64,000 nucleotides of DNA from NCBI RefSeq assembly GCF_001411555.2, contig NC_049909.1, positions 1,674,001-1,738,000 on the forward strand. The letters run 5' to 3'. The notes beneath the pieces are model-generated. The model saw nothing but the letters and a program-made list of their open reading frames with translations, searched no databases and was not told the origin of the DNA. This stretch comes from Juglans regia. Lineage: Eukaryota; Streptophyta; Magnoliopsida; Fagales; Juglandaceae. This document shows positions 19,601 through 46,928 of this stretch, piece after piece. Position 1 is the stretch's first letter; every line of letters begins with the position of its first letter. The translations under genes were made by a program, and so were the position numbers.

Positions 19601-20041
19601 TGATCTTATGATCCCGTCGTGATGTGATGTCGTTTGCTAGAGGATGTGTGGACATGCAACGCAGCATTTTGGGGTCCGTATTTACTTGTTGTTTGAGTCT
19701 TTTATTTACTTGTCGTTTGAGTCCTTGTAGTAGTCTATTTTCATAGAATCTATTTTTTACACACGTGTTGTTTGGTGATTTGTCTAGTCTGTTATCCCTG
19801 CGAGGATATGAGGAAAAGAGGACACTGAGTGAATGAATCTGAAAAGTTTTTTGAAAAGTCTGAATGTTTGGAGGTGTAGAGATTCCCTTGAAGAACCCTA
19901 TTATCAATACAAGCTTGTGACTCATTGAGTCCATTTTACAAACACTTCTCATTCCCTCTGTTATTTCTCATTTGTATTTCCAGTTACCATTTCCACGCAA
20001 CCATCTGATTACATCCACTCCCAGAGAAGTAACCTAATAAC
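19601..20041 (+). repeat. 5' LTR of element A
   Basis: It begins TGATCTTATGATCCC and ends ...TAACCTAATAAC just before the primer site. It matches 46511-46928 throughout, for example GATGTGATGTCGTTTGCT, TATCCCTGCGAGGATATGAG and AATACAAGCTTGTGACTCAT. It has an extra short tandem copy of TTTACTTG(T/C)(T/C)GTTTGAGTC near 19680-19720. Confidence 0.9.
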
Positions 20042-20056
20042 TGGTATATAGAGCCA
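20042..20056 (+). other. primer-binding site of element A
   Basis: TGGTATATAGAGCC directly follows the LTR and resembles the TGGTATCAGAGCC Met-tRNA primer site with small changes. Confidence 0.75.
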
Positions 20057-20066
20057 CCGATTCTTC

Positions 20067-21134
20067 ATGAACAGGGTAAGCTTCGACAAACAACAAGCAA
20101 TTTTGTTGTTGATGGAAAAGATTTTCGACAAGATGCTACATATCACAGATTTATTCGACCGATTGCATGAAAATCATAAGGTTTTCACACAACAAGTATA
20201 GGAAATTTTCTTGGTCTCGGAAGACCAAGCTACGGAGGAGGGCTTAGAAAGGGCAGCGGAGGTGGAGGAGTTTGTGGCAGTACCCATAGAAGTTGTTCTC
20301 AAAGAGATCCCCAAAGAAATCACTACTTCATCTATTCTAAGAAATCCAACTCTGAAATTAATTCCTAACCTCTCAGAAAAACGAGTTGTCCAGTCCAACA
20401 TTGTCCAATCTCGTCTGATTCCTGATGGAGAAATTATTAAGTGCGAAGCCAACATTGTCCAATCCCGTCTCAAAATTGGCCTTTACAAATCTAGGGGTGA
20501 TGTTCATCAAGATGGCGATTACCTTCGAGTTCTATATATGGGAATTTTTGCTGAAACTAATCAAGTTTCTTATTCTGGGTTGTGGATTTTTTACCTAGGC
20601 AGTCACACTTTCTCTCAAAATCATAGAGTATGGAACAACGTAGAGGAAGCTCCTCCTCAGTCTCTACTCAAGGTCGATTCAGAGCTCGGTCTCACTCTTT
20701 ATGCTGCATTGAAGCTCAACAGCAATGGCTCCATCATTCTCGTTTCCACCTATGTAAACCTAGTCGTGGCAAAAGGGAAGATCCCCAACAGTACTCAAAG
20801 GGTTGTACTCTTTAAATCTGAACCCAAAACAGAGGCTCCTCTCCTCAATAGGCTCACGGATCCAATCTTTGAACTACTCCTTGCACGTCTCATATGGCAC
20901 CTTCCCTGGAAGGCCCACATCCTTTTGATTTCCAAGATCAGAATGGAACACCCAGACCGCATGATGCCTAATCAGAGATGCATCAACTACAACAACTTGG
21001 GTCCTCTATATGTTTTTACAGATTTTTGGAGTTTCATTTGTATGACTTGCAATGGGAGACCTCGTGAATTTACACATCGCATGAAGTTTGTCTCCATGGC
21101 GAAGTTTACTTCTCAAGAAGTTGAAGCATTTTAA
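20067..21134 (+). pseudogene. chimeric leader ORF of element A (unknown N-part fused to ARF-GAP)
   Basis: From an ATG at 20067, eleven bases after the primer site, a single frame runs 355 codons to the TAA at 21132-21134. It is broken only by a TAG at codon 45 (20199). The first 44 residues (MNRVSFDKQQAILLLMEKIF...) are helical and could be a gag-like leader. Residues up to about 290 are not recognised. The last 65 or so (from about 20940) match an ARF GTPase-activating domain. After the TAG the next in-frame ATG is at 20538. A frame this long in an otherwise decayed element is unusual. It may be chance survival or an expressed chimera, and I infer no function. Confidence 0.55.
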
Positions 21135-21165
21135 AACGATGGTAACCAGCATGCAAGGGAGTAGT
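20943..21165 (+). pseudogene. captured ARF-GAP (AGD14/AGFG-like) gene fragment
   Basis: Recognisable blocks are MPNQRCINYNNLGPLYV, FTDFWSFICMTCNG, PREFTHRMKFVSMAKFTSQEVEAF and, after a stop, NDGNQHARE. This order and spacing is that of the zinc finger of plant ARF-GAPs of the AGD14 type. The second zinc ligand is replaced (CINY in place of C-x2-C), while the later pair CMTC is kept. The His-Arg of the catalytic arginine region is also changed. No intron interrupts the piece. It is dead as a GAP but clear as a captured exon or cDNA segment. Confidence 0.85.
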
Positions 21166-21400
21166 TTGATAAAATGCCTGAAGAAATCCTTGATGGCAGG
21201 GACTCAATAAATTCTGAGTACTAGAAGTGGGGAAATGAAGCTGAAGAGTTGGGCAGTACTCTTAGTGGTGAGCACATTTTCCCTCTCTATTTTCACTTCC
21301 TATCGAGATTTGAGTGGACATTTTTGAGATATTTGAAGCCCTTCATTTTTCTCTTATCACCCTTGGTGGAGGACCATCGAAAAATCTCACGGTTGAGTTT
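21135..21400 (+). other. unassigned segment of element A between captured pieces
   Basis: Broken reading frames lie between the ARF-GAP and TOPLESS fragments. The phrase FEALHFSLITLGGGPSKN (plus frame at about 21330) has no partner that I recognise. It may be a further captured piece or filler. Confidence 0.3.
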
Positions 21401-21413
21401 GCTGAGAATTTTA

Positions 21414-21900
21414 AGGGCGTTGCATTTAGCAAACATTTGATACACTTGCATTCTTACAATGGGTCAAATGATCAACGGCAGTTTCAGAGAGTGATGCTCA
21501 TGTTGGTGGTGTGAATGACTTAGCATTCTCACACCCAAACAACCAACCGTGTGTGGTAACTTGTGGAGTTGATAAATTAATAAAGGTTTGAGATTTTCCT
21601 AGAAGAAGACTTTAACTTTGAAGGCCATGAGGCACCTGTTTATTCCATTTTTCCTCACCAAAAAGAAAATATTCAGTTTATAATTTCAACTGTTGTTGAT
21701 GGGAAAATTAAGGCTTGGTTGTACGATCATATGGGCTCCAGGGTTGACCATGATGCACCTGGATAAAGGTGCACTAAAATGCTCTATAGTGCTAATGGAA
21801 ACAGACTATTCTCTTGTGGAACAAGTAAAGATGGTGACTCTTTCCTAGTTGAATGGAATGAAACTTAAGGAGCAATAAAGAGGACATATTCTGGACTTAG
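21414..21900 (+). pseudogene. captured TOPLESS/TPR-type WD40 fragment
   Basis: The frame reads GVAFSKHLIHLHSYNGSNDQRQ, DAHVGGVNDLAFSHPN, CVVTCGVDKLIKV, TFEGHEAPVYSIFP, KENIQFIISTVVDGKIKAW, LYDHMGSRVDHDAPG, YSANGNRLFSCGTSKDGDSF, LVEWNET and KRTYSGL. These are consecutive WD40 blades from the first propeller of a plant TOPLESS-related co-repressor. At least three stops and frameshifts are present. The segment runs without introns, suggesting capture from spliced RNA. Confidence 0.92.
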
Positions 21901-21949
21901 AAAGATATATGCTGTTAAGTACATTTCTTATGAGAAATTTGAGGAAAAC

Positions 21950-22265
21950 ATGGTATATGATGATATTGGCATGCTCGAAGAACAAGAAAGCTTGGCGATA
22001 GAAGAAGAAAATGAGATGGAACCTTCCCCCATCCCGACATGGACCAGTGAACATGGGAGCAAGGTTCTTGTGAATATGGATAGCTTTGGTGTTGTTGGTG
22101 ATGGAGTTTCTGATGATACCCAGGCTTTCTTAAAAGCATGGGACATTGCCTGCTTTAATCCAAAATCAGTCCTTTTTGTTCCTCAGGGACGACTTTATCT
22201 TGTTAATGCAACAAGATTTAAAGGGCCATACTAAAAAATATTAGTGATCCAGATTGATGGAACAA
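21950..22265 (+). pseudogene. captured polygalacturonase (GH28) N-terminal fragment
   Basis: An open frame at 21950-22234 contains VNMDSFGVVGDGVSDDTQAF, LKAWDIACFNPKSVLFVPQG and YLVNATRFKGPY. The frame then stops, and ILVIQIDG follows shortly after. This is the conserved N-terminal start of plant GH28 pectin-degrading enzymes, where FGAVGDGxxDDTxAF opens the beta-helix. The catalytic Asp region downstream is absent. The Cys that normally ends the GPC motif is Tyr here. Confidence 0.88.
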
Positions 22266-22525
22266 CTCCAAAACACTCAAAAGCAAGGTACAAGGAAATT
22301 GTTTAGGATAGCTCCTTGGTTAGTTTGGTTGTGCATGAATTACTACTGATTTACCTCTCACAACTCACCTTCAAAAGTTCATCTTATTCCATATTTTATG
22401 AAGGAAGTTAGCCTATTGTTTTACAAAGAGTTGGTTTTGCAACTGCAGATTTTGTCTTGTTACCATTGAGTTATTCTGGCGGTTCAAGAGGTGAAGCCTT
22501 AAGAAGTCCATTGGTAGACGATCGT
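22266..22525 (+). other. end of element A left part, unassigned
   Basis: This is non-coding or unrecognised sequence up to the insertion point of element B. The phrase LQILSCYH is followed by stops, and no domain was seen. Confidence 0.35.
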
Positions 22526-24111
22526 TGTGACACTCCCAACCTTCGCTTGGGATGGAACAAAGACTTAGAGCGTCGGGACGTGCAACACATGGTTACATAC
22601 CCACATTCATGACAGTTAATATGCAATGCATCTTAATATACAACTAGCAATATGCAATAATCACAACGGATAGAAGGGTGAAGACATAATTTATGCTAGA
22701 ATAACTAAAACATCTCAATTTCATTAAAAATCATCAAGTTCAAAATACCAACATAGCATAGACTTTGGTACAAAGTTAAATCGTTCTTTTCATACGATCT
22801 AAGGCATGAAGGACTAAGTCTATAAACATGATAATCAAATCTAGTCTCTTCTCAAGGTCAGGCTCCTCATCAATCAATCAGACCCAGTGCTCCATCTAGT
22901 ACATCCTCTTCGTATCCTGAGACAACTTCTATCATTATGAGTGGAATGATAGTGGATCTACAAGGAGTGAGATTTACATGAAATTTCAATAAGTTAATAA
23001 CCAACTTGCACAAAAATAAATTATGCATAAGGATGATAAATATGAAGTGTATGAAATGTAGAAAAATGGGCATGTGTCTACCATCCAGATTCCTCAACAT
23101 TTTTAGAAAAATCTTGATGCGCTTTCACTTTTAGAGAACATTTTCACTTTCTCATTCCAAAACCATGACATTTCGAAAGAGCACATTTCATACGTCATCG
23201 CTTTAAAAAATCATAACATTTCATCATTTATTAAAGACATCATTAACAAACGTTTGGTAGCAACATGGCTCCCCATATGCACCATGAGCACCTGCCGGTG
23301 ACCGTAGCACAACTCATGTTGGCACTACGTCATTGTCTGCAGATAGCATTCTCAATGCATTAGTTATATAACATAATATCATCGTAACATCATAATATAT
23401 ACACCCACCAGCATTAGGTGTTATAACATATGACTTTGCTCCGGCGTTCTTTAAAAAGAACTCATTCGAAACTCATTGACTACGCTTTGTTAACCCAGGG
23501 GTCACCACTCCATTTTTCCTCACTCCAGAGTGGACAGAGGAGTTCCACTAGGATAATTCCCCATACTAGCCTTTGGGGTCGTGACAAATTATTTTCATGC
23601 TAAGTTAGAAAAATGTGTTCTATGACATGTGCATATATAGTAAGCTTTTTATGTGAAATGACATTTATATATGCAATATGCTAAAACGGTAGAAATATCA
23701 CATGTCATGTAAATATATACTCAATATATCATATAACATGATACTTTTATGCTCTAAGTGATAATTGAAATATGAATGAGGCTTTTATCAATAAATTATA
23801 AATAATATGTTAAGGTGTAAGTTAGAGGTCAACTTACAAACTTTCAGAGTAATTGAAAATAATGTCGTAGCTGCGTAAATCAAGTGCGTACTAAGTTAGG
23901 ATTAATACTTCTATGGGTGAGATCCAAAATCAAAGGTTTCAAAAATGGATATTTACAAAAATAACCCTAGACCCTAAAAATTTATCGTTAAGGCCCTAAA
24001 TTTTCACTAATTGCAAACGAACTCCAAATTTAATAAAAACTCATAGACTTCATATTTTTGGCATTTTAAAACCATCTATGCCCTTGAATTTTCAAAAATT
24101 AAAGTGAAACT
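22526..24111 (-). repeat. 3' LTR of element B, outer part
   Basis: It starts TGTGACACTCCCAACCTTCG on the plus strand and matches 43386-44332. The right-hand copy lacks about 660 bases (22755-23420 here). The LTR breaks at 24111, where element C inserts, and continues at 38811. Confidence 0.9.
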
Positions 24112-25870
24112 TGTTCGCATAAAACTATATCTGCAAGTGCACAAAATCGTAACAATTAGTAAAGTGTTTTAAAAAAAACGGTTATCGAACCCACATGGAA
24201 TAATTATACTATTAAGAATTGAAATTGATTAAATTAATTACTATTTGGAAAACTAAAATTTGAATAATGGTTTATCTAAATTAAACTGAAGAAAAGAACA
24301 TTAAAATTAAGATTTTAATAAAATGAGAATAAATCTAGATCGTTTGACTTCACTTATCAAATCCCACACATTTTATTCTTCCTTATTATAGAATCCCAAT
24401 TATCCCACATTGTTGATAAAAATCCCTTAACTATTCAATATTTTCTCTCGAAAAATATCAAAAATATCTCTAACTAATAACTTCATATCTCTATATGAAT
24501 TTAACTAATTAGAAACTCATTAAGTTTTTTAGATTTTTCTTGAAAATCACAGTAGTCGTGGTAAAGCATCTCAACTTTCGATTAACTAATAGTGTTTAAT
24601 CCTAAAACTTTAATCACAAATCACCTCTTGGTCTAATTGCAATCCAACTGATTGAACAATAGTTAGGTAGAAAATTGTAAGTATTAATTAAAATCAAGGA
24701 ATAAATACTCAATCATGGAAAAATTGAAAACAAAATAACGTGGAATATAAATTATGTATTCAGTACTAGGGATACATCAAAGTTCTAAAAAATAAAATTA
24801 GTTCATAATGAAATTAAAAAGAAAAAGAATAAAATTGAAGTTCTTTGTTGAAGTCGATTGATGACGCATTGGGCTCTCGCCTCTGCCCTCCAGTTTCACC
24901 TTCTCGAAAGAACATTTCAAATTTAAAAACTGAAACTCTAAACCTAAACTCAGACTCTCTAAAACTCAAAATTCTCAACTCTTCAATTCAGAACTCCGAC
25001 CTCCATCCCACAAGACAAGATTAAATAGATGTTGAAATTCAAATCTGGAAACAAGATAACTGCGACTACCATCTCGCCTAGAAATCTAGAAAATAACCTC
25101 TAAAGATAGATGTTAACATAAAAGGAAATATCTCAAGAATAACGAGATTATCTAAAATGGGAGATTCAATGATATGCAATTTGATTTGCGGATTCAGGAG
25201 GATTTGCTCCCCAATAGATTGATTTCGAAACTCGGATTTGGTGGTCAGCAGCATATTGATCCTGATTGGAATGAATTATCTCATCGAGTAGATTCCGTGT
25301 GCGTTGAATATAATTGGCATGGAGGTCATAAATGAATGGGTGTGCAAGGTCACAAATGAACGGGCGTGAAGGTCACAAAGACCACACTGCCCTCTCCTCG
25401 CCTACCGAGTAGAAAGACTCCTCACCGGGATGAAAGACTCATCTCGCCTTTTATAGTTGTTGTTTAGGTTGATCTTTTAAGTTGGTCGTTTATACTAGTT
25501 GCCCAATCTAACTGCCTAGAACTTGGTTGCCAAGTCTTCGCGCCTTCAAGTCGTAAGTCTCCTCGCCTACCGAGAGGTAAGCCTTCTTACCTTTGGGCGA
25601 GAGAAACATATTTGCGGCCCATGGGACAATGTTCATTGCCCCAATCTCATCGGCTCTTTTCAGATATCACGCCTCTCATCAATCTAGATTCGTAGTCTTT
25701 TCTTTTGTACCAAAATGTTATCATTTTGTACTAAATCTTTTCATTCTTTCAAAACCAAAAAAATAAATAAAAATATGTAGAAATAAAATAAAATAAATTA
25801 TATTGGAGGGAAAATGACACTTTTCATAAATAAAATAGTGATAAAAATCTCATAAAATTAGCATTTATCA
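24112..25870 (-). repeat. 3' LTR of element C
   Basis: It begins TGTTCGCATAAAAC and ends GCATTTATCA on the plus strand. The minus-strand purine tract GGTTTATGGGTATT abuts it on the inside. It matches 37137-38810 through most of its length, for example ACGGTTATC(G/T)AACCCACATGG and AGCGAGG-type tracts near the right end. Confidence 0.88.
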
Positions 25871-26628
25871 AATACCCATAAACCTAAGCTTTGCTCGCCC
25901 TCAAGCAAAGTAGAAAAGAAAAGATAATTAGAACAATCATTGGTTTGATTCACAAATTTTATTTCCTCAAAGATTGTCTAAAGTCTATAATTCAAATAAA
26001 TCATTCAAGATCAATCAAGTCTAAAAGTTAATTCAAAACTCAATTCCACCGCATTATTCATCCTCACATTCATGCATACCCATCATTCTCACTTCATCAT
26101 TAGCTCACCGGATAGTTTTATGCAAACAAATAAATAAATAATGGATCTCTAAAAGCTTCATACGCTTGCTTTTCAAATCACTCTCCACTAATGTAGAACA
26201 AAAACTATTAACAAGAATCAATAGGTCTTTATTAAGCTTGTAATGTAAGGCTAGGGTAAGAGCTACAAAGAAGAGGTAGGATTCAAATAAAGCAAGAGAA
26301 TTTAAATTTAAATACTAACTGAATAAATAGAGCATTCTCACTTCTAACACAAACATCTCTTCTTAATCTTTGTAAATCTCTCAACATACGTCTATTTATT
26401 TCACTTTCTTAATCTTTGTAAATCTCTCAACATACATCTATTTATTTCACTTTCAAGTATCTCTCTATTTACCCCTCTATTCAGTAGGTCAAACTTTTTT
26501 TCTTTCATTCTTTTTCTGGAAATATTCCATACTTTTTTTACTGCATTTATGAATGACTCTCGTCGGCCTTTTCTTATTGGCCACACGGTAGACGAGTTGA
26601 CTCTTCACACCCCCAAACTTATGATTTT
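25871..26628 (-). other. 3' internal region of element C, no gene
   Basis: It contains a 46-bp tandem duplication (cttaatctttgtaaatctct..., at 26362 and 26408) and AT-rich sequence. Athila elements often carry an env-like ORF here, but none is recognisable. Confidence 0.5.
26362..26453. repeat. 46-bp tandem duplication
   Basis: Two copies starting at 26362 and 26408 are nearly identical, differing in ACATAC(G/A)TCT. Confidence 0.9.
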
Positions 26629-26633
26629 GATAA
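26629..26633. repeat. target-site duplication of element D (GATAA), left
   Basis: GATAA precedes the TGATATG start of the left LTR. The identical GATAA follows the right LTR at 31627-31631. Confidence 0.9.
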
Positions 26634-27365
26634 TGATATGAACCCGCGGGAATGGAATCCCTTGAACCCACAGTCAATGTGAAAACACCCTAAGAAAGCC
26701 AAAATATAGTCAATGGATGGAGAACATAGACCCGATGACAACTCGTTTCAAGAACCTAGATTATATTAAAATCTAGACTCGTTGAAGAACCCGTCTCAAG
26801 AACCCAGATTACAAAGGAGGAACGCCCCAAAGGTTGTGATTTACTTTTGATAAGTTCAAAAGTTCAATTAAGAACAAGAGAAGTAAAACTCAACTCACAA
26901 TGAATAAATTCATGAAATTTTATAAACTGCTGAAAATGAGGCTACAAAAAGTATTTAAACAAAAACCTAATTAAAACCCTAGTTAAAATAAAGCCCCTTT
27001 TACCCAAAACACCCCTAGATGAATAGTGCCACAGCTACAATGTCTTGGTTATAGTAACGCTACAGTAACCTCTTGAAACCCTAGTTCAATAAAATAATAA
27101 CTTTCCCAACATGTCCTAGCATAGGCCCCCTTAAGTGTTTCTCATAATAATTTCAAATATTCTAAACTAGTAAAATAAGTCCTTTAAATGAATTAAACAA
27201 GTCGAAAGCAAGTGTCCAAAGCCTTTAAGTCATCTTGTTGCCCTTTCCATAGCTTATCAAATGAATCAAAACTGAATCTTCATCATTTAAGCCCTTGAAC
27301 TTGTATTTGGCCCATCTGGAACTTGTAACATATCTTTAAGACTAGGCCCACCTTGGTTTCCATCA
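26634..27365 (-). repeat. 3' LTR of element D (732 bp)
   Basis: This is the left copy, with the purine tract on its inner side. It matches 30891-31626 along the full length. Confidence 0.95.
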
Positions 27366-27987
27366 TTCCCCCTCTCCTCAAAAGGATTCGACCTTGAATC
27401 TCCACCTGGATCAAAGGGAAAAACGTTAGTAACATTATTATTAATTTCGTATGCATTATCATTAATTTGTTCAAGAATTTCAAAAAATCCATCCAAGCTA
27501 CTCCTATTGTCAATAGATAAACGCATTAAATCTAAAGGAGTAAATGCATTAAGTTTATAAACAATTTTAAAAGGAGAATATAAAGTTGTAGTATGCATGA
27601 CCCTATTATATGCAAACTCTATAAATCCATCCATAACCACAAAAATAGAATCTCTACTCCATTCTTTCCTAGGCAACTCCAAAACAAAGTCCATAGATAT
27701 ATGTCTACACATGACTCACTAGGAACAGGTAATGTTGTATACAACCATTGTAGCAAAAGTTTAAATTTGGCCTTTCTGCATGTAATGCACCTGCTACAAA
27801 TACGATTGACATCTCTCTTCATCTTAGACGAACATAAATGTTCATGCAAAATGTCTAATGTTTTCTTGACACCAGAATGATTACTCCAATTATATGCAAA
27901 CTCAATGAAAGGTAAATGATAGTTCCGCAAATGTTCATGCAACAAGTCAATGTATGACAAATGATACTCCCACAAACATTCATGCAA
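27287..27987 (-). pseudogene. element D integrase remnant and pol C-terminus
   Basis: The upstream piece has a zinc-binding part (GVKKTLDILHEHL, then CSRCITCRKAKF). The next has HISMDFVLELPR and DSIFVVMDGF, which then jumps to EFAYNRVMHTT. The two later acidic residues of the DDE catalytic triad are therefore missing. The tail NPFEERGNDGNQGGP is the usual polyprotein end of this Ty3 group. The enzyme could not integrate DNA. Confidence 0.85.
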
Positions 27988-28221
27988 CTTATTTAAAATC
28001 TTCTTTATACCAAAATAACAACTTCAATTATATGCAAACTCAATGAAAGGCAAATGATACTCCCGCAAACGTTCATGCAACATGTTAATGAATGGCAAAT
28101 GATACTCCCACAAACGTTCAGACAACACATCAATGAATGATAAATGATACTTCCACAAACGTTCATGCAACATAACAATGAATGGTAAATGACACTCGCA
28201 CAAACGTTTATGCAACACATC
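27904..28221 (-). repeat. 45-bp tandem repeats (15-residue units) in element D integrase
   Basis: Four units start at 28042, 28087, 28132 and 28177. Two more lie at 27904 and 27949, after a 48-bp interval. Each begins AATGAA(A/T)G on the plus strand and encodes, on the minus strand, variants of HERLWEYHLPFI plus three residues. Frame is kept through all units. Confidence 0.95.
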
Positions 28222-29082
28222 AAAAGTCTTACTTACACCAAAGTTACCCAACAAACCACCATGTCTATCACACACAAGCAGCTTACACATAAAACTAGTA
28301 GGCACACAAAATCTATTCTCCCTAAACAAGTACCAATCTAATTTATGGAACTTACCAAATGATGCTTTCTCATATGTTCCATACACACTAACGAAGTCAT
28401 CATCATTAGCGTACAATTCCTTATCACACTCAAATCTCAACAGTTTTGCATCTAAAATGAAGACAAGGACATACCTTCTTGCTAAAACATCAACCACAAA
28501 ATTTTTCATACCTTGTATGTACTTGAATACATGAGGAAAAGTCTCAATGCAATCCTTCCGCTTAGCACGCATTCTAGTCAACAACTTACCTTGTCCCTTT
28601 AAGTGTGTTAAGGACTCATGTTCTTCAAAGAAAGATCGGGTAGGGATTGTCGCACCTAACACAAAATTAATGTAGTGCTCTATCTCCCTAATAGGTGGCA
28701 ATCCACTAAACACACCGCTAGGAATCATGACCTCATATCCCTGCAACAAAGAAACAACAACACTAGGCAAAGAGTCATTAAATTCATTAGTATAAAAGCT
28801 TGCCTTAGCATAAAAACTCACTTTTGCCTTTTTGTTTCTCTCTGCAATCTCTCTTTCTTTTTCCTCTTGTGGTTCCACTCTTTTTTCTTGACTCTCAACC
28901 ACCTCTCTATTTTCTTTTTCACTCTTTATTTCTTTTGATGTTTTGACCTCATTCTCTTTTTTCCTCTCACTCTCTTTGTTCTTTTCACTATCTTTTTTTC
29001 TTTCACTCTTCTCTTGTTTTGAATTCTCAGCCTCACAATTGTTTTTCAACTCATTTTTTTTTTCTTGAGGTTTCAGCCTCAC
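28024..29082 (-). pseudogene. element D rearranged pol: Lys/Glu-rich linker fused to integrase repeats
   Basis: A 352-codon open frame starts with about 90 residues of Lys/Glu-rich charged repeats, typical of the gag-protease linker. It continues with a polyprotein segment (GLPPIREIEHYINFV, just ahead of where RT should begin). It then jumps past the whole RT to VFKYIQGMKNFVVDVLARR (end of RNase H) and the integrase H2C2 start. The frame is intact, so the deletion of protease-RT was in phase. It ends in the 15-residue repeats. It looks like a large gene but is a deletion fusion. Confidence 0.85.
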
Positions 29083-29155
29083 CCAAATATTTTCCCTTAG
29101 GTGGTTCGGTCTTCCCCATTGTTACAGCTTGATCATTTTTGTCCCACTTCGATTT

Positions 29156-30046
29156 TCAAGGAGTACTAGAAACAGAAGTATACCTTAATGTACCCTTTCC
29201 TTTTAGCCGTCTCTCCACTTTCATAGCCATGTGCACCATGTCCTCTACCTCCTCAAAATGTTGCAACTCAACTATATTGGCTATCTCCCTATTCAACCCA
29301 CTCAAAAATCTTGTCATCGTGGCCTCCCGATCCTCCACTACATTAGCCCGAATCATAGCCACCTCCATCTCCTTATGGTAATCTTCTACACTCGTAGACC
29401 CCTGTGTAAGATTTTGTCATTTTTGGTAGAAGTCTCTATAGTAGTGGGTAGGTACAGATCTCCGCCTCATGATAGCTTTCAACTCTCTCCATGTTTCTAC
29501 AGGCCTCTCAAGATTCCTCCTCCTATTGGATATTAATTGATCCCACCAAATAATTGCATAATCAGTGAACTTAATTACAACCAACTTCACCTTCTTCTGC
29601 TCAGAGTAATTATGACAATCAAATACCAACTCTATTCTTTTCTTCCACTCTAAATAAACTTTAGGGTCAGTTTTACCTTGGAATGATGGTATTTTCATTT
29701 TCATGCTCCCAAGGTTCTTATCTACTCCATCTCAACCCCCTGAGTTAGCCCTAAATCCTCTTCCACGCCTAACTCCTCAATGTCTACCCAATCCAACTTC
29801 AGATGTTAGGACTTCCTCATCCTCACCATACTCTCTATTCTCATACCCATTCTCAATACTAGGCTCACGTCGCCTCCTATCTTTCTCTCCTTGCAGATTT
29901 CTAATCATTGCTTCTTGATTATCCATACTATCCCTCACTTCACCTAACACCAAGTTCAACAGCTCAAACTGTTGTTGCATGGCTTGCAACACAAAGGATG
30001 AGTTATCTTCTCTCCCCCTTGGTGATGAGCTACTCCGATGAGACAT
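29156..30046 (-). pseudogene. element D gag
   Basis: The frame at 30046-29777 is the N-terminal part (ENSSFVLQAMQQQFE-like helices, Arg/Glu-rich). After a frame break, 29704-29417 has the core gag fold (IPSFQGKTDPKVYLEWKKR, VELVFDCHNY-like, WWDQL, RRRSVPTHYYRDFYQK). The 29368-29156 piece continues with NREIANIVELQHF. This is a Ty3-type gag interrupted by at least two breaks. Confidence 0.85.
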
Positions 30047-30878
30047 TATAATGTACTGTCCAAAAGAATGTTAGTGGAAAACCTCACACACTCCCTTACG
30101 TGTTTACACTCAAATAATGGCACTCTACTCGTGTTTCACTCTTAATTAACTTTTTCCCGATAGCAGTCTCACACTCTCTTGCATTTTACCTCAATAGTTT
30201 TCCCGCTCGAGTTCTTTAAGAACTAATTGAACTAAATCAAGACAATATAACCTTGTTTTATTCCAACCAGTAATATAGATCCAAGAAACCAGGAATGAAT
30301 AAAATGACACGAGACTCAAGAAATTTATACGAGGAAAAGTGTAATTATAAAACAAGATACCAACTAGAAAGATGTATTCAGCTCCTATGATGATAAAAGC
30401 TCAATCAACAAATACTTTCCATCTCTTTATTATAACTATGTAGCAATCTTTGAATATGCTACCTTTTCTTTTCTAAATTTCTTTTCTTCTTTTTCTTCCC
30501 TCTTTCCTTTTTTTTTTTTTCGAAATTTTTTTTTTCCTTTCTTTTCTTTTCTTTTCTTTTCTCTAATTCAATTACAAATAACAATATTTAATTGTGAAAA
30601 TCAAGCAATTGAATTCAAGCACGACAACGAAGTAGAAGAGAATTAATGGAACGGCACTCCAAGCAACAGATAAACTTAGAGATGCAGGGAAACCCTAGAA
30701 TTTTGAAACCCAAGGTGATGCAAATTTCAGCCAAAACCAAAATCCTAAGAATTTCTGCAGCTTACTTTTTGTTTCTATTTTTTTTTTTTTTGGCAACCCT
30801 AGAACAATGAAGCCCTAGAATTAAATTAAAGGATGCTAGAATTAAAAGATAGAATCAGACCTGATTGGAAACCTTGCT

Positions 30879-30890
30879 CTGAATACCAAA
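30879..30890 (-). other. primer-binding site of element D
   Basis: On the minus strand the bases after the LTR read TTTGGTATTCAGAGC, one insertion away from the Met-tRNA primer motif. Confidence 0.8.
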
Positions 30891-31626
30891 TGATATGAAC
30901 CCGCGGGAATGAAATCCCTTGAACCCACAGTCAATTTGAAAACAACCCAAGAAAGCTAAAATCAAGTCAATGGATGGAGAACCTAGACCCGATGAGAACT
31001 CGTTTCAAGAACCTAGATTATATCAAAATCTAAACCCGTTGAAGAACCCGTCTCAAGAACCTAGATTACAAATGAGGAACGCCACAAAGGTTGTGATTTA
31101 CCTTTGATAAGTTCAAAAGTTCAATTAAGAACAAGAGAAGTAAAACTCAACTCACAATGAATAAATTCATGAAATTTCATAAACTGCTGAAAATGAGGCT
31201 ACAAAGAGTATTTAAATAAAAACCCAATTAAAACTCTAGTTAAAATAAAGCCCCTTTTACCCAAAACGCCCCTGGATGAACAGTACCGCGGCTACAGTGT
31301 CTTGGCTACAGTAACGCTACAGTAACCTCTTAAAACCCTAGTTCAATAAAATAATAACTTTTCCAATATGCCCTAGTATAGGCCCCCTTAAGTGCCTTTC
31401 ATAATAGTCCCAAATATTCTAAACTAGTAAAATAAGTCATTTAAATGAATTAAACAAGTCGAAAGCCTTCAAGTACCCAAAGCCTTTAAGTCATCTTGTT
31501 ACTCTTTCCATAGTTTATCAAATGAATCAAAGCTGAATCTTCATCATTTAAGCCCTTGAACTTGTATTTGGCCCATCTGGAACTTGCAACATATCTTTAA
31601 GACTAGGCTCACCTTAGTTCTCATCA
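30891..31626 (-). repeat. 5' LTR of element D (736 bp)
   Basis: It starts TGATATGAACCCGCGGG and ends GTTCTCATCA on the plus strand, followed by the GATAA duplication. Confidence 0.95.
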
Positions 31627-31631
31627 GATAA

Positions 31632-32191
31632 TATTGCTATAAGTACTTTACTTGTAGACCTTCTACATCTCTCGTCTTTCATGCTATTGTGAATCTGTGA
31701 CTTTGTGTAAACTTAGTTCTATTGAAAGATAAGGAAATCAGTGTTTAAGCTCAAATAAGGTAGGAAATATGAGGTTTACAAGAAAAAAAAATATAAGGCC
31801 AAAATATATTTCAATAAAGCTCAAAGGGGCGACTAGAAATAAAGAGAATAAATTGGTAAGCTTGAAATGCTCAATCAGTCCAAAGAATGCCTTAATAATT
31901 TCTCCAGAAATATTTTATCTAGAATTTTGCCTCGAGTGTAATCAAAGAAGTTCTAGAGTAAGTTGAGACCATATAAATTCATAAAATTCACGTAAAATTT
32001 CTCTAGGTACTTAAAATAATTAATGATCATAAGAAGCATTCATTGAACATAGAAAATATCAAACAAGTAAGATCAAGTAAAGAATTAATAACTAGACTTA
32101 ATTAATGAGAATTTTTCCTAAAAATGATAATCAATTTTAATCATATTCTAATCATAGGCTTTTTATTCATCAAACCATATTGTTTTTATCA

Positions 32192-32268
<77 letters not shown>

Positions 32269-32600
32269 ATTAATTTTTTTTTTTTTTAGAAAATAATATC
32301 TTTTCCCCAAACTTAAATATCACATTGTCCTCAATGGGGGGAAAAAAAGAGAAACTAAAGCAAAGAATGAGATAAGGTAAGAGATGCTCCCCTGATTTTG
32401 TCCAGTTCTGTCATTTGAATATTTTCCTTGAAGGTGCAGCCGTGTACTCCTTGGAGATTTCCTCGCCTCTTTGTTCCTGCAAAATAAAAGAAAAGGAATA
32501 ATAATAAGTAAAAATAAAAATTAATGAAATAAATAAATAAATAAAACTTGGGTTGCCTCCCAAAAGAGTTTTATTTAAAGTCTGTAGCTAGACATTGTCC
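31632..32600 (-). other. element C 3' internal region between integrase and element D
   Basis: No gene was recognised. It contains a compound (ATT)n(GTT)n microsatellite at about 32190-32270 and is otherwise AT-rich. Confidence 0.5.
32190..32270. repeat. compound (ATT)n-(GTT)n microsatellite
   Basis: About 16 ATT units pass directly into about 10 GTT units, with no interruption in the second block. Confidence 0.95.
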
Positions 32601-32602
32601 GC

Positions 32603-34000
32603 TCAGCATTTATTACTGGCGAGATCTGTGGAGCACTTTTCTGAGTTAAAGTCTCCATCCATATAGGGTTTTAATCTCTGTTCATTTACTTGAAATGTAC
32701 ATTTTGTCTCGTGATGGACTTCAACCGCCCCGTAGGGGAAGAGATGAGTTACCACAAACGATCTCGACCACCGAGAGCGCAACTTTCCCGAGAAGAGTTT
32801 AAGTCTTGAGTTAAATAATAGAACTTTCTGCCCGACTTCGAATTCCTTTATTAGAATATGCTTATCATGCCATCTTTTAGTTTTATCTTTGTAAATCCGA
32901 GCATTCTCATAAGCATCATTGCGGAACTCATCCATCTCGTTGATCAGCAGTATTCTCTTCTCGCCAGCCGCTTGTAAATCAAAGTTCAGTGTCCTCGTCA
33001 CCCAATAGGCTCTGTGTTCTAGCTCCACAGGTAGATGGAAAGCTTTTCCATAAACGAGCAGATAAGGTGACCTCCCAATCGGTGTTTTAAATGATGTCCG
33101 CTAGGCCCATAGCGCATCATCTAACCTTCTCGCTCAGTCTGTCCAAGAGACACTCACGGTCTTCTCCTGAATGCACTTTAGCTCCCGATTAGATACCTTG
33201 ACCTGGCTGCTCGTTTAAGGCTGGTATGGTGTCGCCACGTGATTGGTAACTCCATACTTAGTCAGTAGTGCTTCAAATTGGCGATTGTAAAAATGCTTTC
33301 CGCCATCACTAATTATGGCCCTTGGAGTACCAAATCGGGAAAATATGTTCTTCCGCAAGAAATTCAGCATGACCCTCGCATCATTGGTTGGCAAGGCGAC
33401 CGCTTCCACCCATTTGGAGACATAATCTACAGCCACCAGAATAAATTTATTAAAATATGAGGATGGAAAAGGACTCATGAAATCTATACCCCAAACATCA
33501 AATAATTAAATCACTAAAATATTGTTTAAAAGAATCTCATGTTTCTTAGAAATGTTGCCAACCCTTTGACAATGATCACATAAAGTAATAAAATTAAAAG
33601 AGTTTTTAAAAATAATTGGCCAATAAAAGCCGCATTGTAAAACTTTTGCTATTGTTTTTGCTCCACTAAAGTTGCCTCCCGCTTCCAAAGAGTGGCAGTG
33701 TCTGAGTATGCTCTTCATCTCTTCCTCAAGCACACATCTTTTGATTATCTGATTCGCGCAATGCTGGTATAGAAAAGGTTGCTCCCAAAAATAGTATTTC
33801 AAGTCAGAGAATAACTTATTCTTTTGTTGATATGTCATCTCTGTTGGGAGAATTTTGGACACCAAATAATTTACTATGTCGGCATACCATGGAACAACTT
33901 GTATAGCCATTAATTGCTCGTCCGAGAAGGTCTCATTAATTGGAAAATTCTCCTTACCAACCGCATCTTTAAGCTCAAGGCGAGATAAGTGGTCGGCCAC
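32603..34000 (-). pseudogene. element C integrase
   Basis: Zinc-binding part: HCHSLEAGGNFSG and CDHCQRVGNISKKH (33506-34000). Catalytic core: [20 protein letters not shown] and [15 protein letters not shown] at 33215-33478, with two of the three acidic residues visible. The C-terminal part at 32603-33028 holds RWHDKHI and FEVGQKVLLFNSRLK. Two stops split it. The order and motifs are Athila-type. Confidence 0.9.
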
Positions 34001-34009
34001 TACATTCTA

Positions 34010-35098
34010 GGTACCTTTCTTATCACTTATTTCCAAATCAAACTCTTGTAGTAGCAGAATCCATCGTAACATTCTTGGTTTGGCAGCTCCCTTCGACAAC
34101 AGGTATTTAAGAGGCGAGTGATTGATATAGAAGACCACCTTTGAACCTATCAAATAAGAATGAAATTTGTCAAAGGCAAACACAACTGCCTACAATTCTT
34201 TTTCAGAAGTAGCATAATTCAGTTGAGCTCCTGTTAAGGTCCGACTTGCATAATAAATAACATGAAATTTTTTATCTTTTCTCTGCCCCAAAACAGCCCC
34301 TATAGCATAATCACTCGCCACACATTAATTCAAAATGTAAATTCCAATCCGGTGATACAATGATAGGTGCTGAAATTAATTTCTTTTTCAATGTTTCTAA
34401 AGCATGCAAGCATTCAATAGAAAATTTAAACCAATTATCCTTAATCAACAGAGTGCAGAGAGGTTTAGTAACTTGGGAGAAATCCTTGATAAACCGATGA
34501 TTGAACCAGGCATTACCCAAGAAGCTCCTCACGCCTTTCACATTGGTCGGTGGTGGGAGTTTGTTAATAACTTATATCTTTGCTCGGTCGACCTCAATTC
34601 TCTTGAAGGAGATGCAGTGGCCAAGCAATATTTCCTCCTCGACCATGAAGTGACATTTTCCCAATTTAAAACAAGATTTGTCTCATTTCATCTCTACAAA
34701 ACTAAAGATAAATTATATAAGCAGTTATCAAAAGAATGACCAAAAACCGATAAGTAATCCATGAAGACTTCTAAAAATTTTTCCACCATGTCCGAGAAAA
34801 TGAATATCATGCATCTTTGAAAAGTGGCTGGCACATTGCAAAGACCAAAAGGCATGCGCCTATATGCAAAAGTGCCGTAAGGACAAGTGAAAGTGGTATT
34901 CTCTTGATCCTCGGGTGCAATGGCTATTTGATCGTCGGCCTTGACCATGTCTCGGTCACTTAATTGAAAACAGGAATGTACCTCGAACTGGAATTCCATT
35001 TATTTAAATACGTCAAACGTGACTTGCTCCTTGCCGACCCTCAAAACGAGTTTCACTTTCTGGACATCAATTAAAGTTCTCCCTATCGCTAGGAAAGG
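34010..35098 (-). pseudogene. element C reverse transcriptase and RNase H
   Basis: The RT piece at 34694-34999 contains TFTCPYGTFAYRRMPFGLCN and the catalytic box MDYLSVFG. The second Asp of the usual MDD box is Tyr here, so polymerase activity would be lost. The RNase H start at 34311-34541 carries RSFLGNAWFNHRFIKDFS and APIIVSPDWNLHFELMC. The first half of RT (before 34999) is out of frame. Confidence 0.85.
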
Positions 35099-35797
35099 TC
35101 AGCCTAGTATCAAAGGGATCTCCTCGACCTCCTCTATATCAAGTACAATGAAGTTGGTAGGGTAGATGAACTTATCAACTTTCACCAGTACGACCTCAAT
35201 GACTCCTCTTGGGTATTTGATAGATTTGTCAGCCAACTGTAGAAAGATGATGGTCGGCTTTACTTCTCCAATACCCAGTTTCTTGAAAACAGAGAGAGGC
35301 ATTAGATAAATACTTGCCCCTAAGTCATATAAAACTTTATTAAAATAGGAATTTCCTATAGTGTAAGGGATCGTGAAACTCCCCGAATCTTTCAACTTAG
35401 GTGGTAGCTTCTTTTGTAAAATTGCACTGCTCTCCTTGGTCAGCACCACAGTCTCATGCTCCTCCAACTTCCACTTGTTTGATAATATATCATTCAAAAA
35501 TTTTGCATATTTAGGCATTTGCTCTAAGGCTTCAATGAAAGGAATATTAATATGCAATTGCTTAAATATACTCAGAAATTTAGAGAACTGATTATCAATT
35601 TTATTTTTCTTTAATCTTTGCGGAAAATGAATTGGTGGATCATAAATTGAAGGAGAATAAGTTTTAGAAGTAAACTCCCTGGATTTCTTGGATTTTGCAG
35701 CCCCTTTATTCTCTCTAGTCTTTTCAGTTTGCTGGTTGGTCGCCTCCCAATCGGTTTCTTTCACCTCGTCCTCGATTTCCTTATTCTCGATCTCCAC
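35099..35797 (-). pseudogene. element C protease region
   Basis: The frame contains LYDLGASIYLMPLSVFKKLG, the Athila-type aspartic protease signature with DLGAS. Upstream is a Lys/Glu-rich linker followed by PQRLKKNKIDNQFSKFL. This is one of the longest surviving frames of the element. Confidence 0.88.
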
Positions 35798-35839
35798 ATT
35801 TTCAGCTTCTGCATCTCGCTCGGTACTTTCTTATTGTGG

Positions 35840-36967
35840 CTAGTCATATGTCTGCCCACTTCGCAATGTTATGGCTTTGACATGCTCCTTTGGCTTGGTC
35901 ACAATGTTGCTCGGTAAAGTCCCTGTTGTCCTCTCGATAAGCATGTTGGAAAGCTGACCGATTTGCACCTCAAGATTGTAGATGGATGCCGAGTTGTTTT
36001 GGATCACCATATCAGTCTTTTGCATGTACTGCATGAACATATCCTCAAGTGCCGGTTTCTTCTCTTGTTGTGGAAACTGTTGAGGTGGTCTAATCGACAC
36101 TTGGTTATTGCTCCATGAAAAGTTAAGGTGATTTCTCCATCTGAGATTGAACGTATTTGAATAATGATTGTTATGACGTTGGAAATTGGTCACTTAATGG
36201 GCTTGTTCTTGACTCGGTGGAACAAAAAGATTCCCCACTTGACAATCAACACTTGAATGATTTCTTGCGCAATGATCACAAGTAACATTAGTTTGAATAG
36301 CATTAACGTTCATCTTACCTAGTTGTTGTGAAAGATGTTCCATCTACGCCGCTAGTGTGGTAATAGAATCAAGTTCAAAAACTCCAGCCGCCTTTCTTGT
36401 CATTGCTCTCTCCAGAGACCATTGATAATTGTTGGATTCCAAAAGTCCATAGGTGGCTTCATGGGTCTTACTCATTAATGCTCTTTCAACGGTTCCAGCA
36501 ACCATAGATCGATTTGTGAGTCCCAAACCATTGTAGAATGTTTGTACTTGAAACTAGGTGGGAAGGTCGTGATGTGGACACTTGCGCAATAAGTCTTTGT
36601 ATCTCTCCCACACCTCATACAATGATTCACCCTCAAATTGGGCGAAGGTAGTAATATCATTCCTTAATTTCGTTGTCTTGCCCTGAGGGAAATACTTTGC
36701 TAAACATTTTTGTGCCAACTCCTCCCAGGTGGTAATAATGCCAAGCGGCAAAGAATTCAACCAAGCTTTTGCTTTTTCCTTAAGTGATAAAGGAAAAAGT
36801 CTTAATCGGATTGCATCATCTGTCACTCCATTGTGTTTAAAAGTATCACAAATTTTCAAGAAATTCGCAATATAGACATTAGGATCCTCTTGTGACAGCC
36901 TCCCGAACTGGATGGTTTGTTGGATCATTTGAATGATGGCCAGCTTGATCTTGGGATCGAAAAGCAT
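35840..36967 (-). pseudogene. element C gag
   Basis: The N-part (36554-36967) has FLKICDTFKHNGVTDDAIRL, FPLSLKEKAKAWLNSLP and YEVWERYKDLLRKCPHH. The C-part (35840-36193) has WRNHLNFSWSN, then NLEVQIGQLSNML, then KAITLRSGQ. These are Athila gag hallmarks. One or more breaks lie at 36194-36553. Confidence 0.9.
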
Positions 36968-37136
36968 ATGCTCTAACGATTTAAATCAGCACATGCACTT
37001 TTGATTCCTAAAAGAAAAAGATCAAACTGAGATCAAATTTAATCTTTTTTTTTAAATAAAGAAAATAAAATGAAATCTAAAGTAGTAAAAATCTAGCTAG
37101 TATCAATATCAAACCCATAGGGAATAAATTTTTTTT

Positions 37137-38810
37137 AAAGAAAACGGTTATCTAACCCACATGGAATAATTATACTATTAAGTATTGAAATCACTAAATT
37201 AATTACTATTTGAAAAACTAAAATTTGAAGAATGGTTTATCTAAATTAAACTGAAGAAAATAATATTAATATCAAGATTTTAATAATAATGAGAATAGAT
37301 CTAGAGCATTTGACTTCACCTAGCAAATCCTACACAGTTTATTCTTCCTTATTATAGAATCTCAATTATCTTAAGTTGATGATAAAAATCTCTTAACTAT
37401 TCAATATTTTTTCTCGAACAATATCAAAAATATCTCCAACTAATAACTCCATATCTCTATGTGAATTTAACTAATTGGAAACTCATTAAGTTTTTTGGAC
37501 TTTTCTTGAAAATCACACTAGTCGCGGTAAAGTATCTCTACTTTTGCTCAACTAATAGTATTTAATCCTAGAACTTTAATCACAAATCTCCTCTCGGTCT
37601 CATTGCAATCCAAAAGATCGAACAATAATTAGTTAGAAAATTGTAAGCATTAAGAATAAGGAATAAACACTCAATCATGAAAATATTGAAAATAAAATAA
37701 CTTGGAATATAAACTGTGTGTTTAGTACTAGGTTACATCAAAACTCTAAAAAATGGAATTAGTTCATAATGAATTTAAAAACAAAAAGAATAAAACTGGC
37801 GTTCTTTGTTGAAGTCGGTTGATGAAGCATTCAGCTCTCGTCTCTACCCTCCAATTCCACCTTCTCGAAAGAACACTTCAAATTTAAAAATCGAAACTCT
37901 AAACCTAAACTCAGGCTCTCTAAAACTCAAAATTCTCAACTCTCCGATTAAGAACTCCGACCTCTATCCCACAAGACAAGATTAAATAGATGTCGAAATT
38001 CAAATATGGAAACAAGATAACTACGGCTACCATCTCGCTTAAAAATTTGGAAAATAATCTCTAAATATAGATGTTAACATAAAAGGAAATATCCCAAGAA
38101 TAACAAGATTATCTAAAATAGAAGATTCAGTTATATGCGGCTTGATTTGTGGATTCGGGAGGATTTGATCGCTAATAGGTTGATTTCGAAACTCAGATTT
38201 GGTGGTCAGCAATAGACTAATCTCGGTTGGGATGAATTATCCCATCGAGTAGATGTCGTGTGCGCTGAATATTACTTGTGTGGATGTCACAAAGACCACA
38301 TTGCGCTCTCCTCGCATACCGAGTACAAAGATTCACGACCGGGATGAAAGACTCATCTCGCATTTTCTAGTTGTTGCCCACGATGTCGTTAAGTTTGGTC
38401 TTTTAAGTTGGTCGTTTATACTAGTTGCCCAATCTAACCACCTAGAGTTTGGTCGCCAAGTCTTCGTGCCTTCAAATCGCGCCTTTTGGTCGCGAGTCTC
38501 CTCGCCTACCGAGAGGTAAGCCTTCTCGCCTTTGGGCAAGAGAAACCTTTTTACTACCCATGGGACAAGGTTCCTCACCCCAATCTCATCGGCTCTCTTC
38601 AGATACCGATGCCTCTCATCGGTCTGGATGCGTAATATCTTCTTTTGTACCAAAATGCTATCCTTTTGTGCTAAATCTTCTCATTCCTTCAAAACCAAGA
38701 AAATAAATTAAAATATATAGAAATAAATTAAAATCAATAATATTGGAGGGAAAATGACACTTTTTATAAATAAAAGAGTGATAAAAATCACATAAAAATA
38801 ACGCTTATCA
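37137..38810 (-). repeat. 5' LTR of element C
   Basis: It matches 24166-25870. The outer end is TAACGCTTATCA at 38810. The inner end is uncertain because the first 50 bases or so of the left copy have no clear partner here. Confidence 0.85.
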
Positions 38811-40564
38811 AAATTTGCCCAAATGGTCCCAACCCATGGCATGCACATTAGTTGATGCCTAACTGTATTTTCAACTATTGGTCCCTATGGTTACATGCAT
38901 ATAAGATTTTATTTAATCACAAATAATCACTAACATCTTTAATGATATAGTAAAGACTAATTCTTGGAGAATAGAGTTCATCCCAACACTTAATCATGGT
39001 TAAGATATCCTTAATCTCTTCTTCATTCCAAACCGATTCATACAAGATGATCAAAACAAGATATATTCAAAACCTACCATGGCATGCTTCTAACCACAAT
39101 TTAAACCTTCCATAATTATGCTAAGACAATAATAAATCATATCAAATCATGCTTAAGACATGCCATAGCTAAATTTTCACTTAAAATCATTTAATTATCC
39201 AAACCATCTCTTAATTGATCCGGTTTTTATTTAAGCATGAAAACCTTCCCAAAACTTATCCAAATTTCATACCAACACATGGAAACAAAGCTTGACATGC
39301 TAACTAAGATCAAAAGCAAGAAACCTTGCACATTTCGTGCCCTTCCAAGCACTCTAGACAGCCTTATACCAGAACACTCAAGAACTCACTAAGAACTCGG
39401 TTTCACTCTTTTGATTTTTAAGATGGGGAAGTGCTCTTCAAGACTCAAGAGGAAGCTTGGCGCTGAGGTGTGGAGGAAAAGAGAGGGTGAGGGTGCCTTT
39501 TATAGGTGGTTAAGGGGAAGGGGACGTTGGCTTTGGTCAAGGGAAATGATGAAAGATGGTGTGTGAATCTGAAATTTCCAGATTTGCACTCCATCGCCTG
39601 TGTCATCTTGTACAGGTCAAAACAGTGCCCTAAACCACCATGATTTCAATCCTTTGGTTGCTACATTACTCCAATGGGGGCTGACCAAGTTGTGGGGCAG
39701 AGGAAAGGGAAGAAAAATCAACAAAACCACCCAAGGGGGCTGACGAGTTCAACTGGTTTTTCCCTTGGCAGATTTTGATTATTATTTTGTCTAATCCCAT
39801 TGAACCATCATGAAGGTGCAGCCCAAAACAAGGTGATGGGATGGAGGTGTCCTACTGAAATCCTAGACTGCCTTATACAGTTTGCGTCCTTTTGAGCAGG
39901 GGAATAGTGGCCTAAAACCACCATGATTTCTTCTTTACTATGGCTACAATGGTCTTATAGTGGCGGCCAGGTAATGGGGTGATAAGTGTGATTTTATGCA
40001 ATTTTCGTCTTGAATGATGAGAGGTAGCCAGAACTAAAGAGAGCCAACGAGATTTGGGTGAGGAGCCTTATTCCGTGGCAGCAAGGAGATTTCTCTTGCC
40101 CAAAGGCGAGAAGGCTTACCTCTCGGTAAGCGAGGAGATTCGCGACTAGAGGGCAAAGACCTAGGCGCGAAGACTTGGCGACAAGGTTTTGGGCAAGAAG
40201 ACTTGGTGGCAATATATATTTTTACCTTCTGGGTGAGATGACTTGGCAACAAGGTTCTGGACGAGAAGACTTGGGTGATTAGTCTAACCGACCAACCTTA
40301 AAGTCCAAACTAACCGACATCAAGTGCAACAACTTGAAAAGGCAAGAAGAGTTTTCATCTTGGTCGGGAGTCTTTCCACTCGGTAGGCGAGAAGAGTCTT
40401 TCATCCTGGTCGAAAGTCTTTCCAATCGGTAGGCGAGATGAGTCTTTCATCCCGATCAAGAGTATTTCCACTATGTAGGTGAGAAGATGGCCGTGTGGTC
40501 TTTGTGACCACCACGCCCATTCATTTTCAATGCACACCGCATCTACCCGATGGGATAATTCATC
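38811..40564 (-). repeat. 3' LTR of element B, remaining part
   Basis: It continues the LTR broken at 24111 and matches 44328-45890, for example ATGGTCCCAACCC(A/C)TGGCATG and the repeated CGAGA(A/G)G tracts. It stops at GATAATTCATC, short of the last 90 bases present in the other LTR. Confidence 0.88.
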
Positions 40565-43368: not shown

Positions 43369-43380
43369 GCTCTGATACCA
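43369..43380 (-). other. primer-binding site of element B
   Basis: On the minus strand TGGTATCAGAGC lies five bases inside the LTR, a perfect Met-tRNA-type primer motif. Confidence 0.92.
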
Positions 43381-43385
43381 CCCTA

Positions 43386-46497: not shown

Positions 46498-46510
46498 AAG
46501 GGAAGGAGAT
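46498..46510 (+). other. polypurine tract of element A
   Basis: AAGGGAAGGAGAT directly precedes the TGTTATGATCCC start of the right LTR. Confidence 0.85.
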
Positions 46511-46928
46511 TGTTATGATCCCATCGTGATGTGATGTCGTTTGCTGGAGGATGTGTGGGCATGCAATGCAGCGTTTTGGGATCCGTATTTACTTGTTGTT
46601 TGAGTCCTTGTAGTAGTCTATTTTCATAGAGTCTGTTATTTTACTTTACACATGTTGTTTGGTTATTTGTCTAGTCTATTATCCCTGCGAGGATATGAGG
46701 AAAAGAGGACATTGAGTGAAGAAATATGAAAAGTTTATTGAAAAGTCTGAATGTATGGAGGTTTAGGGCTTCCCTCGAAGAACCCTATTATTAATACAAG
46801 CTTGTGACTCATTGAGTACTTTTTACAAACACTTCTCATTCCTTCTGTTATTTCTTATTTGTATTTCCAGTTACCATTTCCATGCAACTATCTGGTTATA
46901 TCCACTCCCAGAACAGTAACCTAACAAC
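46511..46928 (+). repeat. 3' LTR of element A
   Basis: It matches 19601-20041. It lacks the short internal duplication and differs in several short indels. Confidence 0.92.

Follow-up and report, generated by a model that had tools for sequence, protein, structure and literature searches.

An LTR retrotransposon family carrying spliced pieces of at least 11 host genes in one plant genome

Element A and its captured gene fragments

The window, i.e., the whole stretch of DNA analysed, comprises 64,000 nucleotides (C9:1674001-1738000); the genome searched with it holds 571 Mb in 21,811 contigs, of which C1-C16 are 20-52 Mb long. Within the window lies element A, which has the direct LTR pair, primer site and purine tract that the preliminary description had seen in it. 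Its 5' LTR (19602..20039, on the plus strand, as are all parts of element A) and its 3' LTR (46511..46926) are direct repeats, with 86.1% identity between 19606-20046 and 46513-46933 in self-BLAST. The primer binding site, TGGTATATAGAGCC at 20042..20055, we take to be of the iMet tRNA type, and the polypurine tract (46497..46510) directly precedes the 3' LTR, the same position as in relatives. At the primer-site position, the relatives L030, L031, L033 and L038 carry AGTGGTATC with AGAG. Ungapped, the LTR pair is 92.0% identical over 412 sites (K2P 0.0855); assuming between 2.06e-9 and 1.3e-8 substitutions per site and year, it would be roughly 21 to 3 million years old. The 5' LTR has 35 matches in the genome; its likeness to the LTRs of the sister copy L018 is lower, at 82-83%.

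A distance of 27 kb lies between the two LTRs, since element A is split by B, an element of gypsy type (22526..45983, minus strand) with further LTR pairs inside it, as seen by self-BLAST and by comparison of the site with L018. Position 22525 is the last base before the nested element and the interior restarts at 45984, so that the span 20042-22525 described at first takes in the part of the interior that precedes element B and does not reach the end of element A. Element B is flanked by the duplication ATCGT/GTCGC, and L018 has the empty site, GTCGT, with both interior halves contiguous (8612 to 8617). Element B has long LTRs, the first of which is split by element C (LTR pair 24167-25872 and 37133-38812, 84%); the LTR pair of a further nested element, D, lies at 26632-27365 and 30889-31626 (92%).

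Inspection of the flanks of element A revealed no recognisable target-site duplication. An origin of its LTRs from different insertions is unsupported, since they behave as a pair and L018 carries the same fragments; the missing duplication leaves the pairing unproven on that count. No reverse transcriptase or integrase domain was detected at E<=0.1 in 20042-22534 (three frames) or 45986-46511 (one frame). Lacking the gag-pol of an autonomous Ty3/gypsy element, element A is a non-autonomous LTR retrotransposon of Ty3/gypsy type, old and broken. Direct repeats at 18207-18968 and 47244-47665 (80-83%) flank it on both sides, and it may itself lie inside an older LTR or duplicated pair. Elsewhere in the window, frames at 1128-3110 (plus strand) and 11658-14001 (minus strand) resemble, by eye, the remains of LINE reverse transcriptases.

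A genome DNA search with the interior of element A recovered the parent genes of the captured fragments as separate exons, distributed over four of the large contigs (C4, C12, C16 and C7), which rules out adjacent parents or a single fusion gene. E-values of the exon-parent matches range from 1e-16 to 1e-73, with two short exceptions (9e-7 and 0.004), and these matches exceed chance. Gene names come from Pfam; the names TOPLESS, AGD14, LAMMER and insulinase are in part presumed identities of the captured pieces.

The element's own leader (20042..20965), common to other loci at about 69-87%, is followed by an AGD14-like ARF-GAP fragment with parts of four exons (20966..21161), and a 310-aa open frame (20202-21131) runs from the leader into it in the native ARF-GAP frame. 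This fragment gives a Pfam ArfGap match over the cut-off (E=1.2e-9) and is 89.2% identical to its spliced parent over 195 nt. The parent extends from C4:10513733 to about 10521811, with two exons in 10513733-10513977 and the others from 10521636, and its introns of 149, 7658 and 77 nt are missing in the window, the 77-nt call depending on 11 nt past the splice site. A segment common to L014, L017 and L018 (21162..21415) separates this fragment from a TOPLESS-type WD40 fragment of five exons (21416..21914). The TOPLESS parent, at C12:20242362-20243661 on the minus strand, has exons 91-96% like element A, and the fragment is 92.2% identical to the spliced parent over 499 nt. Introns of 91, 444 and 145 nt are missing; the loss of a fourth, of 118 nt (GC-AG), can be seen clearly in L017 and L018 but is ambiguous in the window.

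Two joins in the window element contain fillers. One of 31 nt (21915..21945), the first 24 nt of which also occur in L017, leads to a GH28 polygalacturonase fragment of three exons (21946..22265), whose parent (C16:17539474-17540206, plus strand) has exons 89-93% like element A, matched by the DNA search at 17539474-17539947. Identity to the spliced parent is 91.3% over 323 nt, and introns of 164 and 245 nt are missing. The TOPLESS (WD40) and polygalacturonase pieces of the window fall under Pfam cut-offs and are clear only against their parent genes. All three of the genes named in the preliminary description are thus present, as identified there, but the count should be four. Behind a second filler of about 30 nt (22266..22296), a Dymeclin fragment begins at 22297..22525 and continues beyond the nested element at 45989..46158, the second part being 91% identical to the parent locus L011 and joined to the first in L018. 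The parent lies on the minus strand of C7 (C7:40932016-40932508), with a duplicate 30 kb off and a paralogue on C12; it matches Pfam Dymeclin at E=1.5e-8, and the window reaches only 0.085. The two parts are 87.8% (229 nt) and 91.5% (164 nt) identical to the spliced parent. Introns of 86 and 266 nt are missing, and an 82-nt intron is ambiguous because the parent and the 3' module are alike there.

In total, element A lacks at least 10 parent introns at splice sites, and all four fragments are in sense. The absence of introns and the placement on the element's strand, both claimed earlier from the sequence, were borne out by alignment to the parents, which rules out retained introns. The interior ends with a 3' module common to the family (46159..46496), for which 42 matches were found at 40 places including the window (40 scored of 59 candidates).

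Relatives with other gene sets

The search for other copies and parent loci proposed in the preliminary description was productive on both counts: the fragments match spliced parents, and the same four fused fragments occur on C7 in L018, between its own LTRs (92.65% alike). The four-gene composite therefore exists on C9 and C7, each copy with its own LTR pair. L018 has two insertions of its own. One, of 417 bp (7702-8122), lies within the captured polygalacturonase with a 4-bp duplication and resembles L026 sequence and a stretch near the ARF-GAP parent. The other, a LINE-like insertion of 2.6 kb (4452-7058) between the shared segment and TOPLESS, ends in an A-rich stretch, contains an open frame of 315 aa and has a duplication of about 18 nt.

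Other relatives carry other gene sets, and the real unit is a family with at least 11 traceable host genes. L017 (C1) combines ARF-GAP and TOPLESS with an HGSNAT-type fragment, which is under the Pfam cut-off, has a parent on C13 and matches it over 355 nt without a gap, with three introns gone. In L022 (C13), the ARF-GAP piece is longer and is accompanied by an HMG-box gene (six introns gone, one of them GC-AG), an inositol-phosphatase gene (IP5P, three gone) and a PPR-like piece. L030, L031, L033 and L034 (C3, C11, C9 and C5) hold pieces of a LAMMER-like kinase (three introns gone), an insulinase (one gone, Pfam match under the cut-off) and TOPLESS, and the last three are 94-97% like L030. 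L041 and L045 (C6 and C2) hold coatomer-epsilon (one intron gone), aminopeptidase P (eight gone) and a fragment from a C14 gene that lacks intron evidence. Across the family, captured pieces are 84-98% identical to their parents. In L030 (about 2790-2880) and L031 (about 2776-2874), a Rieske match barely exceeds the Pfam cut-off, off the main frame. L014 (C8) carries PPR/E-motif sequence resembling C1:33137873-33138827 and a second piece resembling C13:903471-903826.

Several composites are young, with LTRs 97-99% identical and, for most, exact 5-bp target duplications. LTR identity is 99.2% in L030, 99.4% in L031, 98.3% in L033 and 97.4% in L041; that of L034 is only 86.1%, in a gapped alignment. 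Exact 5-bp duplications flank L030, L033, L034, L038 and L041. None was found around L017, L031 or L045, of which L045 is truncated by the end of its locus; for L018 and L022 there are ambiguous candidates only. Relatives were found via shared parts, and these counts are no estimate of the share of the family that bears captures; host domains over the Pfam cut-off were present in one (L041) of four loci examined that have the ubiquitin-like leader.

L032 is a plausible representative of a helper type. It matches 248 aligned columns of the 3' half of the LTR and the edge of the primer site at 88%, and carries gypsy protease, reverse transcriptase, RNase H, integrase and a Tf2-1-like SH3 domain over three frames; it is broken and matches only half of the element A LTR. 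L039 and L046, in a 13-kb locus on C13, were considered as an autonomous partner and rejected, with no Pfam domain at E<=0.001 and no 250-aa ORF in L046.

Shared changes give some order to the captures. The TOPLESS pieces of all seven elements compared have three derived changes in common, at residues that we take to be conserved, in differing contexts. From these common changes, a single capture of TOPLESS followed by pairing with different partners is the most likely history. Likewise, the ARF-GAP pieces of the window, L018 and L022 have two common changes relative to the parent, and the same kind of history is likely for them.

Open frames and the ubiquitin-like head

Native reading frame is kept in at least one copy at eight of nine joins between traced genes, for which the probability is about 0.001 at a chance of 1/3. 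TOPLESS/polygalacturonase and polygalacturonase/Dymeclin are in frame in the window and L018. TOPLESS/HGSNAT, coatomer/aminopeptidase (two copies), and kinase/insulinase and insulinase/TOPLESS (four copies) also keep the frame. For ARF/TOPLESS the frame is kept in L017 alone and lost in the window and L018, HMG/IP5P is in frame with unrelated sequence between the two, and ARF/HMG is out of frame; without ARF/TOPLESS and HMG/IP5P, six of seven joins are in frame.

An ORF with a ubiquitin-like domain opens many relatives; the leader of the window element differs. This head resembles the RAD23B domain (PDB match, E=1.3e-5) and is present at all 40 scored loci (of 71 candidates), at 528-839 in L030. 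Its dN/dS is 0.14-0.45 in all 21 pairs from seven loci, with p<0.05 in 20 of these non-independent pairs; L034 and L014 were omitted because they are broken. These data show that the ubiquitin-like head is under purifying selection. L038 (C6:24908300-24912300), with LTRs 99.74% identical, has no host domain over the Pfam cut-off but contains an uninterrupted frame of 910 aa, 843 codons of which are in the interior; the longest in 500 shuffles was 181. Apart from the ubiquitin-like domain near its start, this frame has only a sub-threshold DUF6498 match, and its residues 60-220 matched nothing in the protein database at E<=0.001. A second copy of L038 lies at C7:1987690-1991149, with LTRs 100% identical after rounding; both copies are very young.

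The length of the frames could suggest that the captured proteins are functional cargo under selection, as in oncogene-bearing retroviruses. L030 and L041 have open frames of 603 and 533 aa. With 131 substitutions in their kinase, insulinase, coatomer and aminopeptidase pieces, these two elements have a single stop there, a single 6-nt deletion and no indel that shifts the frame. By comparison, seven frame-shifting indels and 13 stops accompany 267 substitutions in the fragments examined from the window, L018, L017 and L022, and every captured fragment of the window copy contains a stop. Kinase and insulinase have dN/dS of 0.97-1.16 relative to their parents, which speaks against selection on the cargo, and the values of 0.39-0.66 for coatomer and aminopeptidase are below 1 because the parents' own constraint lowers the ratio. 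Comparison of the four L030-type copies with one another gives an overall dN/dS of 0.50-0.72, and variation across codon positions is flat (77/68/67). We therefore regard functional cargo as unlikely. In the young branch, selection would instead appear to keep a frame open behind the ubiquitin-like head and not to maintain the sequence of the captured proteins.

Quite possibly, although we hold this tentatively, the family is a modular lineage in which a slot between a conserved ubiquitin-like head and a conserved 3' module is repeatedly refilled with in-frame pieces of spliced host mRNA, with selection keeping the frame open while its content drifts. If so, the open frame may be kept for translation, RNA stability or packaging, and the family would be a running exon-shuffling machine.

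Spliced origin and route of assembly

Across the family, 11 host genes with spliced parents were traced, from which 38 introns are gone: five in ARF-GAP, four in TOPLESS, two in polygalacturonase, two in Dymeclin (plus one ambiguous), three in HGSNAT, six in HMG, three in IP5P, three in the kinase, one in insulinase, one in coatomer and eight in aminopeptidase P. All 11 are in sense, which for random strands has a chance of 2^-11. The PPR and C14 pieces, the L022 ubiquitin, the Rieske matches of L030 and L031 and the second piece of L014 were left uncounted because no splicing was shown for them. Introns were called by a script that accepts GT or GC with AG at up to 12 nt from the join and can occasionally succeed by chance, and the main argument for intron loss is that spliced parents align without interruption. 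For example, the spliced TOPLESS parent aligns with L017 without a break over 501 of 501 nt, and spliced aminopeptidase P aligns with L041 over 912 nt (93.9%, six gap positions). Because the parent introns are missing, the fragments originated at the RNA level.

The family thus has spliced, sense, multi-gene content. It comprises five or more types of composite, whose copies have LTRs of their own and in some cases are recent. It is highly probable that this family repeatedly takes up pieces of spliced host mRNA between its leader and 3' module, a process in which we infer template switching, a helper and reshuffling. In this process, host mRNAs would be packaged together with element RNA, and reverse transcriptase may switch templates at short homologies, building composites stepwise. 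Relatives that carry pol, of the L032 type for instance, could supply the enzymes, the finished composite would be mobilised, and the modules would be reshuffled by subsequent exchange among element RNAs. Homology of 2-3 nt is seen at the ARF/HMG (CC), coatomer/aminopeptidase (GCT, in L045) and aminopeptidase/C14-gene (AA) junctions, and Dymeclin and the 3' module share 20 matches in 24 columns. These homologies, together with the sense orientation and internal position of the fragments, the lack of poly(A) and the stepwise gene sets, point to repeated template switching. The preliminary description had proposed RNA template switching for a multi-gene non-autonomous element, and our data support this; switching itself fits the data as a step that we infer.

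To our knowledge, Bs1 is the main known case of an LTR element that took up several host genes. Among the literature records listed, titles and opening abstract lines revealed no described equivalent of the present family, nor of a ubiquitin-like domain at the 5' ends of LTR elements, and a plasmid collection gave no near-identity match, as expected for plant DNA. According to a 2026 review, Bs1 of maize is an LTR retroelement with segments of three host genes that later formed a chimeric gene (PMC13317346). Judged by description, the features in common are several unrelated host-gene fragments between LTRs and the loss of parent introns. Unlike Bs1, four genes in one element, at least 11 traced genes and at least five composite types occur here in one genome; many relatives begin with a ubiquitin-like head, and the modules they share allow events to be ordered. 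A maize survey reported 425 intact LTR elements with gene fragments and, under its conditions, no LTR element with more than one standard nuclear gene (PMC2774510); host gene fragments are likewise described inside LTR elements of rice and sorghum (PMC3726574). The present elements resemble these in carrying host fragments and differ from the maize survey in being multi-gene. Abnormal template switching was proposed for the Veju long form and BARE-2 (PMC13317346), which took up unknown or retroelement sequence, whereas here series of spliced host exons were taken up. With composites of different ages in one genome, the sequence of captures and their fate can be followed directly, along with frame bias and the chemistry of the junctions, and the assembly of exon-shuffled genes by retroelements becomes testable in a recently active family.

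Alternatively, trans-splicing or read-through might first have joined host transcripts, with the chimeric RNA captured afterwards. The native frame is preserved across most of the fusions, and as far as mapped the TOPLESS start and both the start and end of HGSNAT lie on exon borders, as such a route would predict. The polygalacturonase start and end, the TOPLESS, ARF and HMG ends and the Dymeclin start lie inside exons, and exon borders were accordingly rejected as a general rule for capture ends. The gene sets are also stepwise (L017 has ARF and TOPLESS without polygalacturonase or Dymeclin, and L022 has ARF and HMG), which makes prior fusion very unlikely.

LINE-made processed pseudogenes, inserted in turn into an LTR element, would likewise be stripped of introns, and LINE-like sequence is at hand in the L018 insertion adjoining TOPLESS and in the window frames that resemble LINE reverse transcriptase. 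We nevertheless consider this origin highly improbable. LINE retrocopies have a poly(A) tail and a duplication of their own for each fragment; here the longest A run in the 25 nt past 13 fragment ends is 4, and such duplications, judged by eye at printed joins, do not accompany the fragments. Furthermore, the fragments are internal, in sense in 11 of 11 cases and mostly joined in frame, and neighbouring pieces meet at 2-3 nt of homology or across a short filler.

Pack-MULE/Pack-TYPE elements and Helitrons capture at the DNA level, and they resemble the present family in gene capture and shuffling. DNA-level capture by such elements or by gap repair, followed by insertion into an LTR element, is a frequent multi-gene route in plants, but for the traced fragments it is refuted by the absence of the 38 introns, which Pack-TYPE elements and Helitrons keep, and LTRs are present here.
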